From Owenia fusiformis (Eukaryota > Annelida > Polychaeta > Sabellida > Oweniidae), in the NCBI GenBank assembly GCA_903813345.2, contig CAIIXF020000010.1:26062425-26126424 (forward strand): a stretch of DNA of 64,000 nucleotides, given 5' to 3'. Under the pieces are notes generated by a model, which was given only the letters and a program-made list of their open reading frames with translations, had not been told where the DNA came from and did not search any database. Position 1 is the stretch's first letter, and every line of letters starts with the position of its first letter. The position numbers were made by a program, and so were the translations under genes. This document shows positions 11,901 through 23,900 of the stretch, one piece after another.

Positions 11901-14900
11901 GCAAAATCAAAATAAATTTACTGGTTTCAGTGATTCAAACATTTTCAACTGACATAATTGACTGTAATTGGCTGTTCTATCTTCCTTTTATACCCGGTTT
12001 TCCCCTTTAAACATGTTATTTTGGGACACTGGTGTCTGTTTTAAACTGTGGACCAGTTTTATTGCAGTTTATCAGCTGTTCACTTCTTAAAACTTGATGT
12101 TAGTTGTAAACGAGTACTTTTTTTTCTTGTTGGCTAAGGGTGACTATATCTTAAAATTGAGAAAAAGCATGACATCAATCTCAGAACTAAAATGAATATT
12201 TTTTGGGAGTAATATCTTGGTTTCTCAAATATAGTAAAATTGGCATCTATGTGTGACGCTAACTACATGTATTGAAACACCTAGAAAACAAGAGTTCTAT
12301 TACCTAGTACATTTCTTTGTCAAGTAACACTTAAAATCTGAAATGTAGCTTTAAAGATGTATTTACTTAACCTGTTTGATCAAAGTTTAAATAGTAATGT
12401 GTTTGAATAATAGCAATAGCAGTATGCTGTAAAATGGTGTTATAAAGACGTTACAAATCCTTTAATCTTAATCCCTCCTTACTTCATAAGATTAGGATTA
12501 AGATTTATTTTGATTCATCCAATTTAGGGTATTAGAGTTTCAACTTTTTGTATAATTACATCAATATGAATTACAAAGAATAGAACAAACATCTATACAG
12601 TGAAAAGAATCCATTGAATCTGTTGTAATAAAGTTCAGATTCAAACTAACCTAAATTCTACCAACCTTTATGCTCTATTTTTGGCTTTTGCTCTATAGCA
12701 CTGACTTGATTAACGAACCATTGTAGAAATAAGTCTCCCTTGATGTGGTGTAATGTGGGACATATTTATGTCAAAGACCATGTGTTCTCTTATTGGTATA
12801 TTGGTCAAGTACATCCACATTCTATTGACAATTATATTCAATCATGTTTCCCCATTTACACATATATGCTACCATGTTGTTCACTCATACAGCTTTTTCC
12901 CTACTCATCCAGTGTTATATATCTTGTGTATTTTCATGTGTTCTACCATTGCAGGGTCTAACAGTACAACGGGCAAAGGAAATTTTACTTAGAGATGGTC
13001 CTAACTGTTTATCACCCCCTAAAACTACGCCAGAATGGGTGAAATTTTGCAAGCAGCTTTTTGGCGGTTTCTCAACTCTGCTCTGGATAGGAGCTATTCT
13101 ATGTTTTGTGGCCTACTCAATCCAAGCATCCACATATGAAGAACCACCAGGCGATAATGTATGTATAGCACACAATAAACAACTTCAATTCTCCAGAATA
13201 TTTCTATCATAGGTTTAAATTTAAGTTTGTAATATAAATAAATTGATACAGCAAATTGAAGTCAAGTTTTTCAAACATTAAGGCCAATAAACTTCCTTAA
13301 TTTCAGTTTGATTACTGGCCATTATATCCTATTTTGTCATCATACGTTAGAGCCAACATTTCGACATTATAATCTGATAACACATATTTGATGTGATAAG
13401 TGTAATCTATCTATATATTGCATATAAATAATTGATTGATCTGTACATTGTATTAATGCATGTATTTTTGTTCATTAGGGAAATGCTATTTTAAGAGATA
13501 CCCAACCAGTTTTTGAATGGGGTCATTAAAAACCAAAAATAGAAATAGTAAAGTTTAAATCATCACATTTTATCTCAAGTATTTAAAATATGACTTATAG
13601 TAAGTACAGTTTGTTGCCCCTTCAAATTTACACATATGGCCTTACAGGCCTTATCTCAATGATACACAGTCATTATAATCAAATAAATCTAGTCTTTCAT
13701 TTACGTCATCACTCTAATACTTATATTGTCATTTGACGTTAATGTTGATAAAAATAGAAAGTCCAAAGTGAAAGTGGTAGATAAAGAGAAGTCTAAATTA
13801 AGATTACTTTTACTCTCATTCGAATTGTAACCTCAATTTTGGGTATTAGGCCTTTTAAAAAGAACTTTGATTGAGAGATTTATTGATTTGTTGATGATTG
13901 CATTTAGATTTAAAATGATAATAAGTCTAGAAGAACAAATATCACCCCAAATTTGATATTAATGTTAAAATCAGAGTATATGGTTAAAATCTCTTCTTGT
14001 AACCTTTGGTACACATCAGAACATAATTGTTTCTATATTTAGTGTATTGGTTAGAACATGTTTTTGTAGAATTCCTCTGCTTACAAAAAATGATCATTGA
14101 ATATCATAATACTGATAATATTTGGCAACTAGTATGTGATTACATTACATCATCATAATATTCATGCTGATATTTTGCATCAGTTTCAGTAAATTCACTT
14201 ATGGAAAATTCCTTTGCCAGAAATTATATGCACTCAAGCCAAGCCAAAGTTTGGGGTAACACTCATAATTCAAGTATATAGTAAATGTTTTATTTTGTGT
14301 CAATTAAGAAAAAAATCAAATTGAAAGGCAGTAACCAGTACTGGTTGAGAAACCTCTTGAAAATATCAAGTAATTGTTTGCTTGAATCACTTAAGACAAC
14401 CTGCAAGTGAAGATTGTGAAATTTTAAGACTTAAACATCCTCCAGTTTGTATGTTTTGACACTATGTCCTTAACATTAACATATCACTAACTGATTCAGT
14501 CAAATCAGTTTGGGTTTATGTGTCCAACAAGATATTTTGTGACAAAAATTGTACGGGGATTATTAGAAAGTTTTGCCAACTCATTTCTGTTTTCTGTATT
14601 TTCATTATATTTGGTCATTTGTAAATAGAAGTAATACAAGTAGCATTTCCCTAAGAGCAATGTATATTTGTTGAGTTATTAATTACAGATTCTCATTTAT
14701 CATATAGCCATAATCATATGTTTGTATGTTATCTGAGTAATTGTAACTTGCACAGGAATTTCTAATTATGAAAAGTACTAAATGTCCTGTTATGTTTCAT
14801 AAACCTGATTGAATGAACATATATGTGTGTATAGCATGTTTGCACTTTTTCTAGATGAACTTATATTTTTCCATTGTACTTAGTTGTACTTAGGTATCGT

Positions 14901-20900: not shown

Positions 20901-23900
20901 TGCTTTGAGTCTCTGTCCCTCTGTCTGTTCTATTTACTATTTCTCTTTATCATGAAAGGTTCTCTAGTGGATTTCTGAGTTGAATATTTATGCTTACAAA
21001 TGTGCAATTACATGTCTGATGAATATGTGTTTGCTCAATAGCTTTGCTTCATTCTTAGTTAAGATCATCTTTTTCTGTGATGTGATTATGTCTAACCTGC
21101 AATCAGTTTAACCATAGCAACTAACTTAGTGTTTCCCCTTGTCTTGTCCAGCTATATTTGGGCATAACATTAGCAGTCGTGGTAACAATCACAGGCTGTT
21201 TCTCATATTATCAAGAGGCAAGCAGTGCCAACATCATGGCCTCATTCGCAAACATGGTCCCCCAGGTATATATTCCTCATAGGTAATCTTCCCTTGTTGC
21301 CTTGCATGCCACTCACTGGTTTACATGAAGTTATATGACCAACTTATATATATGGGATAGTCATTGACATGAACTGTTTTGGCTGGTGGAAATCTCAAAT
21401 TAATTTTTATCAGTTTATTTGAATTATCTGCTATTGTACTTCCAGCCAAATTGTTCTAAAAATGATTATTCTGAATTAAGTTTGTCTGTTTCTACAAATG
21501 AAGAAGTTTCACTCCATAAAATTCTAGTTCTGAGAAGGATTAGATACCTCAGTTACAGAAAATCTTAGTAGAGATACTCTAATATTATTGTGTTTATGAA
21601 ATAGTGAAACATCTTTCATTTGTATGAACGTACAAAGTAGGTTGAGTTTTATATTATAAGTTATGTGTTTGTCATTTAAACTCTTGAATTTTGATGTTTT
21701 TGAACATTTAATAAAATTAACATAATTTTATCATTGAAGTAAATATACATTACATCTAAATAAATTGTATTATGATAATTACTACAATTGACTATTGTAA
21801 TATGAAATTTCTAAACTTAAATCATGAAAAATATAAGAAGTAGAACTGTTTCGTAATATCAAATGGTATATTTTAGGGGAGCATGAAATAATGTAATAAT
21901 GTTTTCATTGTAGTTTGCTCTGTGTATCCGTGGTGGTGAGAAACTTAACATTCGTGCAGAAGAGTTGGTGGTTGGTGACATTGTTGAGGTGAAGTTTGGA
22001 GATCGAGTACCTGCTGACATTCGTGTCATTTCAGCCCATGGGTTTAAGGTAATCTTTAGTTTTCAATTTGTATAAATCAATAAATGTATCTCAATATTCT
22101 TGGTATTTGTTCAAAATTTGTTCATATCCTTGTTTTTCAATTTAGCCACAATCCTCAACTGTCCCAGAATTAGATTATGAATATGTGTAGAATTCTTGTA
22201 TAAAATCAGTCATAATCTCCATATTCGTAACTGGTGGCTGTCCCAGGTAAAGCAATATTCGCCAATAATTACTAATAGATATCCTTTACGTGTTGCAGGT
22301 AGATAACTCCTCCCTCACTGGAGAGTCTGAACCTCAGTCACGTAGCGCTGATTTCACCAATGAGAACCCTCTGGAAACTAGAAATTTGGCTTTCTTCTCG
22401 ACAAATGCTGTGGAAGGTAAATATATTCACCTATTTACAAATAATTTAAATTACTTTTCGCTCCAATTTTGGTTAACATATTGCAAAGAGCACATTTATG
22501 GCCATGAAATTATTTATATGGTTTATTTTGTAAATTTAAATTGTACATCTTGCTTGTACTCTATATTGCCTAATGAATGATTTCTAGGAACATGCAAGGG
22601 AATTGTTGTACAGTGTGGTGATAACTCTGTCATGGGTCGTATTGCTAACCTTGCCTCTGGTCTAGAAGTAGGAGACACCCCAATCGCTATTGAAATCGGA
22701 CATTTCATTCATCTCATCACTGGTGTGGCTGTGTTCCTCGGTGTGTCATTCTTCATTGTTGCATTCATCCTGGGATACTTCTGGCTCGATGCTGTCATCT
22801 TCTTGATCGGTATCATTGTGGCTAATGTACCTGAGGGACTTCTTGCTACTGTCACAGTAAGTATACAACAGAAATATCACATATTAAATGGTTCACTCTG
22901 CCGAGTATATGCTTAATCTCATCAATATTTTAATGTTTTGGGGTGAAATCAGTTAATTGATATCAGTCAAAAAACATGATATGAACCCCTAATTCTCCCT
23001 CAAAGTAGAATGTAAACTGTAAATACAGCAAATCAGTGCCATCTAAAACTGAAATGTTTTATTATAGGTATGTCTGACCCTTACTGCCAAGCGTATGGCC
23101 TCCAAGAACTGCCTTGTGAAGAACTTGGAAGCTGTAGAGACTCTGGGATCTACATCCACCATCTGCTCCGACAAGACAGGAACACTTACACAGAACAGAA
23201 TGACTGTCGCTCACATGTGGTTTGACAACCGTATTGTAGAGGCTGACACCACTGATGATCAATCTAGTAAGTAAAAATAAGATAACTAAGATATAAAAGT
23301 GTAAAGTGTTCAAACACTGATACCTTGCCTCAATGAATTTTAAAGATTTGTAGTTTCAGAAGACACATGGATTAATACATTTGGAAATTGTTTTCATTCA
23401 CATGCCCTGTAAAGTAAAACTTGAGTGTGAACTTGTAGTGAACAGCTATTAATATATTAATATTGTATGTTTCTAGGTGCAACCTATGACAAAAATAACC
23501 CTACATGGATCAATTTGGCTAGAATTGCTATGTTGTGTAATAGAGCTGAATTCAAAGTCAATCAAGATGATGTTCCAATTCTGAAGAGGTAAACATTAGT
23601 TCTATTATAAGATATAGAAGTTGATATTATAAGAAAAAGGTGCTAGGTCATGTTTGATATCAAATCCAGAAGACAGTTATTGGATTGGCTATTGAAATCA
23701 CCCACTTGTATGTCTGTAAGTCTGTCTTTTAACACATTGATGGCTCATTTGTAATCCTCCACAACAATTGTAATGGTTTTGCTTTTGAAATTTGTCTGTA
23801 ACATTTTCAATTGCTTTTTTTAGCTCTCATTAGTCTCATTAGCTCACCTCATTTCAAAATGGGGGCTATCTTGATTGCTAAAAAATTGCTATTCCAGAGA

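Follow-up and report, generated by a model that had tools for sequence, protein, structure and literature searches.

A tandem array of six putative alternative exons for helix M2 in the sodium pump gene of the annelid Owenia fusiformis

The Na+/K+-ATPase alpha gene of the annelid Owenia fusiformis carries six tandem copies of a 114 nucleotide (nt) exon that encodes membrane helix M2 and the linker between M2 and the actuator domain. The copies are located at 14884..21265 of a 64,000 nt stretch of genomic DNA, hereafter called the window. This six-exon array is real, old and selectively maintained. Its architecture suggests, with a probability that we place near 0.87, that the copies are alternative and most likely mutually exclusive exons giving rise to six pump isoforms, all of which are kept by selection. 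Few animal enzymes are as conserved or as costly as the sodium pump, whose diversity is usually discussed in terms of gene families.

The identity of the gene as a Na+/K+-ATPase, proposed in an earlier sequence-based note on this DNA (the original prediction), is secure. Specifically, the spliced protein containing copy 1 agrees from end to end, with 100% identity, with an annotated Owenia protein (P0001), which matches TIGR01106 (the Na,H/K pump alpha family of P-type IIC ATPases) with 1932.4 bits over positions 2-997 of the 997-position profile, against a cut-off of 946.1 bits. The exon encoding the N and P domains finds its best matches in the PDB among Na/K alpha-3 and alpha-1 chains (437.9 bits versus at most 380.3 for potassium-transporting chains), and the M1-M2 piece carrying copy 6 likewise scores 245.5 bits with Na/K chains and at most 183.1 bits with chains named potassium-transporting. 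These chain scores make Na/K alpha a closer relative of the Owenia pump than the H/K pumps. Furthermore, the phosphorylation motif DKTGT is present, as part of CSDKTGTLT.

The M2 exon occurs exactly six times in the window, all on the forward strand: at 14884..14997 (copy 1, the one used in P0001), 15653..15766 (copy 2), 17891..18004 (copy 3), 18951..19064 (copy 4), 20242..20355 (copy 5) and 21152..21265 (copy 6). Each copy lies directly between an AG and a GT and comprises 38 codons in phase 0-0, and the copies are 59.6-80.7% identical in nucleotide sequence. When both strands of the entire window were scanned with an ungapped profile, the six copies scored 138.8-167.5 and anything else no more than 19.5, and no seventh or degenerate copy was revealed. 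The introns between copies are 655-2124 nt long, and those at the ends of the array measure 1725 nt (first) and 648 nt (last). The six tandem, phase 0-0 exons of the original prediction, with their coordinates and AG/GT borders, were thus confirmed on checking, as were the single constitutive exons said to flank them. The upstream neighbor (12955..13158, 204 nt) encodes M1 and the outer M1-M2 loop and ends at the equivalent of N122 of alpha-1, and the downstream neighbor (21914..22048, 135 nt) encodes the start of the actuator domain. All six copies had also been described as intact. Indeed, any one of them joined to 14 other placed coding exons yields a 3108 nt coding sequence with only the final stop, and the results below add long-term constraint to intactness.

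The copies are neighboring, similar in length, homologous, in the same frame and bordered by conserved splice sites, the features by which mutually exclusive exon clusters are recognized in the available part of PMC3923563. If the array works in this manner, the M2 exon would have undergone ancient tandem duplication, with every copy retained by selection. The spliceosome would then connect the upstream constitutive exon, which ends at 13158, with a single copy and splice this copy to the exon beginning at 21914. The six resulting pumps would share everything but helix M2 and the linker that leads to the actuator domain. Each copy would be used, one per transcript, presumably with regulation by tissue or stage.

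Selective constraint is evident from the way in which the copies differ. Among the 15 copy pairs, the proportion of synonymous sites that differ (pS) is 0.57-1.02, which is near or at saturation, and the corresponding nonsynonymous proportion (pN) is only 0.034-0.246; differences at codon positions 1, 2 and 3 number 103, 54 and 330, respectively. We also simulated neutral drift by mutating the nearest relative of each copy until the nucleotide distance equalled that observed. For each of copies 1-5, none of 20000 runs kept an open frame with so few residue changes; for copy 6, 1 of 20000 did. Each pairwise comparison spans two lineages and so shows constraint on the pair rather than on a single copy, but since each copy is a member of a constrained pair and none of the six is disrupted, the simplest reading is that every copy is itself constrained. 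The 60 nt on each side of the copies have no evident similarity to one another (ungapped identity 0.20-0.40), and therefore the duplications look old.

The encoded segment corresponds to residues 123-160 of alpha-1, judging from the matched ranges in the 1016-residue pig alpha-1 chains, and it begins one residue after N122. This alignment to solved pumps agrees with the earlier placement of the segment in M2 and the cytosolic linker, by the usual helix names and pig numbering. The exon also contains the residue aligned with alpha-3 S137, a position associated with alternating hemiplegia, which is Ala in copy 1. Substitutions at sites 111 and 122 bear on insensitivity to cardiac glycosides, as stated in the available part of PMC6733596. 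In Owenia these sites align with Q and N of the constitutive exon, and are therefore common to all six versions of the pump.

Residues vary among the six copies at 16 of the 38 positions. YYQEA, which had been called fixed, is indeed present in six of six copies, whereas MVPQ, to which the same claim extended, reads LVPQ in copy 5. Among copies 1-4 the differences are mostly small hydrophobic exchanges in M2. In copy 3 the second residue, which corresponds to position 124 of alpha-1, is a Trp, and copy 5 contains an Asn, neither of which is present at its position in a first comparison set of 126 segments. This set was drawn from 118 of the first 120 of 7985 matches, with P0001 left out and P0110 lacking the full segment.

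Copy 6 is the most divergent. Over a 17-residue stretch of the linker it retains a single charged residue, compared with five to six in copies 1-5 and four to six in the 126 segments of the first set. A wider set comprised 233 segments from 225 proteins, namely all segments with at least 24 matches among 257 fetched proteins except P0001. Here the charged residues number three to seven, with 11 segments having three, and copy 6 lies below every segment compared. Other peculiarities of copy 6 proved less distinctive. T128, T134, S146 and A152, absent from the first set, were considered as unique residues, yet they occur in 1, 9, 10 and 3 of the 257 fetched proteins, respectively, and the linker sequence EASSA is common to copy 6 and nine other pumps. 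A search with the copy 6 region supplied 38 proteins, and among the fetched proteins there is no close relative of copy 6 over its whole length, the best sharing 30 of 38 residues. A separate observation concerns a pump of 1479 amino acids (P0137), whose first 15 M2 residues are those of Owenia copy 6 and whose remainder is different; this is probably convergence.

From these sequences, copies 1-5 appear to be mild variants, and copy 6, with its nearly chargeless linker, would be a functionally distinct isoform. A natural guess is that copy 6 is the one copy where distinct pump behavior is to be expected, either through altered coupling of the actuator domain or through altered contact with the head groups of membrane lipids. 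An influence of the exchanged region on ion affinity and turnover, as expected in the original prediction, is likewise hypothetical.

How one copy might be chosen was examined at the level of the splice sites, which are all GT-AG in the array. The donors of the variant exons look less consensus-like (GTTTGT appears three times), and weak donors were considered as a sign of regulation. However, their pairing with U1 is no weaker than that of 13 constitutive donors (p = 0.83), and this candidate was rejected. The acceptor tracts of the six variant exons are likewise no poorer than those of 14 constitutive exons (p = 0.15). The inter-copy introns are long enough that steric crowding does not bar the joining of two copies. 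Because intron length, splice-site type and removal by nonsense-mediated decay (NMD) cannot impose a choice, and because the gain or loss of a single membrane helix would be expected to ruin the pump, an active mechanism must presumably enforce the inclusion of one copy.

The introns of the array (13159-21913) were also inspected for shared words. Eighteen different 8-mers occur in at least four of the seven introns, with a shuffle mean of 8.6 and 1 of 100 shuffles as high; in a series of 60 shuffles the mean was 9.0 and the largest value 15. TGTCATTT and TATATTTT are 8-mers that are each found in five array introns. Same-strand 9-, 10- and 12-mers were ordinary in the 60 shuffles. The excess of shared 8-mers has no counterpart in three length-matched control stretches (two of which overlap), where 5, 31 and 18 of 60 shuffles were as high. 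The sharing of 8-mers among array introns is a weak lead. The word and pairing tests on these introns use one genome and are weak either way.

Several observations weigh against an array of six mutually exclusive exons. A scan for docking-site duplexes was null, with real values no better than those of 16 shuffles. With the first intron as host, 16 and 15 of the 16 shuffles were as good by the mean and weakest-of-five measures, respectively, and with the last intron as host the figures were 12 and 12. Complementary 10-mers are in excess (147 versus a mean of 111 and a largest value of 146 in 60 shuffles), and complementary 12-mers equal the largest shuffled value (22 versus 22). In a series of 100 shuffles, complementary 10-mers between different introns numbered 101 against a mean of 76.5, with 3 of 100 as high; the corresponding fractions were 1 of 100 for all complementary 10-mers and 39 of 100 for 12-mers between introns. 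This excess of complementary words was equalled or exceeded in the three control stretches (60 shuffles each) and is thus not specific to the array. Frame is another difficulty. All 64 order-preserving combinations of copies between the flanking exons, including the skip, stay open, and double inclusion or skipping would therefore escape removal by NMD. The sole annotated Owenia protein among the 120 of 7985 matches listed contains copy 1 only. When an alignment of six 76-residue pieces was used to search short proteins for Owenia fragments, none with the Owenia flanking residues appeared in the 120 of 448 matches listed. In a separate comparison, no same-species pair of full-length proteins with a near-equal backbone and a different M2 was seen among the pairs listed, in a database whose clustering at 90% would hide such pairs. 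An Owenia RNA sequencing (RNA-seq) time course is described in the available part of PMC9977687.

The use of copy 1 in the annotated protein, together with the lack of any other copy with Owenia flanks among the short-protein matches listed, would also suit an explanation in which one or a few copies are used and the others are relics of past duplication. This we consider improbable, since all six copies are open and bordered by AG and GT, each belongs to a pair that is more conserved in protein sequence than neutral drift allows, and the scan of the window revealed no decayed copy. A very recent loss of a copy is conceivable. The open frame of all 64 combinations is what would be expected if the exons served as cassettes, with two or more copies or none included and the product, with an extra or missing membrane helix, serving some role other than that of a pump. 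Such use seems very improbable, as gain or loss of a helix should invert the topology of everything downstream, and the strong constraint on M2 suits working pumps. An assembly artefact, in which paralogous genes (as the original prediction had feared) or haplotypes were collapsed into one locus, is hardly credible: it has in its favor the tandem similarity itself and nothing more, whereas each of the 14 other coding exons occurs once in the window, the sequence beside the copies is unrelated, the near saturation of synonymous sites exceeds any haplotype difference and makes the copies too diverged to be alleles, and P0001 is located on a contig of 37.47 Mb.

Returning to six alternative and selectively kept exons as the favored interpretation, the array carries several implications. 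That it is intact despite synonymous turnover marks M2 and its linker as a site where selection wants alternatives, and the copies provide a ready-made, selection-tested series of M2 variants for structure-function work. The array also poses a splicing problem, namely the choice of one exon in six without help from intron length, site type or frame. If the interpretation is correct, six pumps would be made from one gene.

The rest of the gene and of the window can be described briefly. None of the 14 other coding exons has a second copy in the window, and all are on the forward strand. Upstream of the M1 exon are an exon of the N-terminal region (5770..5928, 159 nt, with AG/GT borders and present in P0001) and a 60 nt exon (8603..8662). 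Downstream of the exon that begins the actuator domain lie exons at 22299..22416 (118 nt), 22588..22856 (269 nt, presumably the M3-M4 region), 23068..23266 (199 nt, with CSDKTGTLT), 23477..23588 (112 nt), 23898..24030 (133 nt), 24228..24951 (724 nt, N and P domains), 25243..25769 (527 nt, presumably the M5-M7 region), 26362..26492 (131 nt) and 26750..26851 (102 nt), and the last coding exon, which ends in KETYY and the stop codon, is at 27132..27252. The first coding exon, corresponding to the P0001 N-terminus MASTKLKGKD, gave no match in the window with one degenerate pattern at zero mismatches.

Elsewhere in the window, at 59900-61789 (forward strand), an exon that by eye resembles part of a CLC chloride channel ends near 60133 and passes directly into minisatellites with 13 copies of 57 bp and 8 copies of 102 bp, each unit containing the 3' end of the exon and its donor; GCTGCAG/GTATGT occurs there 19 times exactly, versus 0.01 expected. 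Pfam PF00654 matches a later exon (63486-63737), and the exon ending near 60133 has no Pfam match. A 59 bp minisatellite of 13 copies with 99% matches lies at 41941-42707, and an open reading frame at 40601-40966 (forward strand) encodes Pro/Gly/Tyr-rich repeats (PPPGAYPA) without a Pfam match. By eye, a piece at 52509-52907 (reverse strand) resembles the end of a non-LTR (long terminal repeat) retrotransposon protein, and two blocks at about 37300-38540 and 43640-45230 (forward strand) have closely alike translations, probably reflecting a dispersed repeat.

Among the 120 of 7985 relatives listed, eight gene models, all from arthropods, contain two copies of the same 38-residue segment with the same neighbors (Homarus, Ephemera, Ladona, Timema cristinae, T. 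shepardi, Frankliniella, Armadillidium and Centruroides). The segments are flanked by ..DN and by FAT/YAI/YAT.., and they stand back to back in six of the eight models, with extra residues between them in the two Timema. These models indicate that the same exon is apparently duplicated in arthropods, the doubled segment presumably being a gene predictor's rendering of tandem alternative exons. They also answer, at the protein level, the original prediction's question of whether the insect alternative exons occupy this position: the segment and its flanks are the same in arthropod Atpalpha, which has two copies where Owenia has six.

At the equivalent of alpha-1 K149, six of eight pairs combine Ala in the first copy with Lys or Arg in the second; Frankliniella has Ala and Ser, and Centruroides, whose two copies are identical, has Lys in both. 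We tentatively raise the possibility that swapping M2 provides Owenia with six sodium pumps of distinct kinetics from a single gene, splicing doing there what vertebrates do with several alpha genes. Linker charge would be one of the tuned properties: copy 6 of Owenia retains one linker charge, and six of the eight arthropod pairs exchange Ala for Lys or Arg at this site.

In a tree of 38-residue segments with 44 tips, the copies from Owenia appear at scattered places, and one common origin for them is not rejected (approximately unbiased test of Owenia monophyly, p = 0.20); segments of this length are too short to date the Owenia duplications relative to those of other lineages. The first copies of crustaceans and insects mostly cluster, as do several but not all second copies, with neither whole group reaching support of 70. 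A grouping of copy 6 with Lineus (support 81) was not trusted, as copy 6 forms a long branch.

A fly peptide in the available part of PMC2648944 suggests that insects possess a second alternative exon elsewhere in the Na/K-ATPase alpha gene, its placement in the M6-M7 region being our reading of the peptide. The available text does not confirm fly exons 6a/6b as the equivalent of the M2 exon, and the available parts of PMC3228551, PMC11765297, PMC6025963, PMC12153100 and PMC4815013 make no mention of an M2 exon. Unlike the putative second alternative exon of insects, the M6-M7 region is single-copy in Owenia. A further observation comes from two other proteins, P0184 (encoded on a contig of 91 kb) and P0185 (from Helobdella). 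In each, the M1 segment is fused to the M2 segment, after which the sequence continues into VC.., perhaps by read-through of the donor. The animal encoding P0184 may lack the intron before the M2 exon, and this may be a lead on which lineages carry the array.

Insect Dscam contains a large exon array in which docking and selector sequences provide the mechanism of choice. Like Dscam and muscle myosin heavy chain, the Owenia gene would draw on homologous, same-frame exons within one gene, choosing one per transcript. The Owenia array differs from the Dscam type in that it is a single cluster, that it resides in an ion pump gene, and that no convincing docking/selector pairing was found in its introns. 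Paired mutually exclusive exons are known for coq-2 in helminths, annelids and molluscs, with mrp-1 cited as a further case, in the available part of PMC7434440. As described there, these genes resemble the present one in using tandem in-frame exons to remodel part of a conserved protein in annelids, whereas coq-2 is a different gene with two exons whose use was checked by RNA-seq (PMC7434440). No report of a six-copy M2 array in any annelid was found among the papers listed in the literature searches, which is no proof of absence. Arrays of this kind are known and this exon is apparently duplicated in other animals; as far as those papers extend, the new part is the six-fold array in an annelid.

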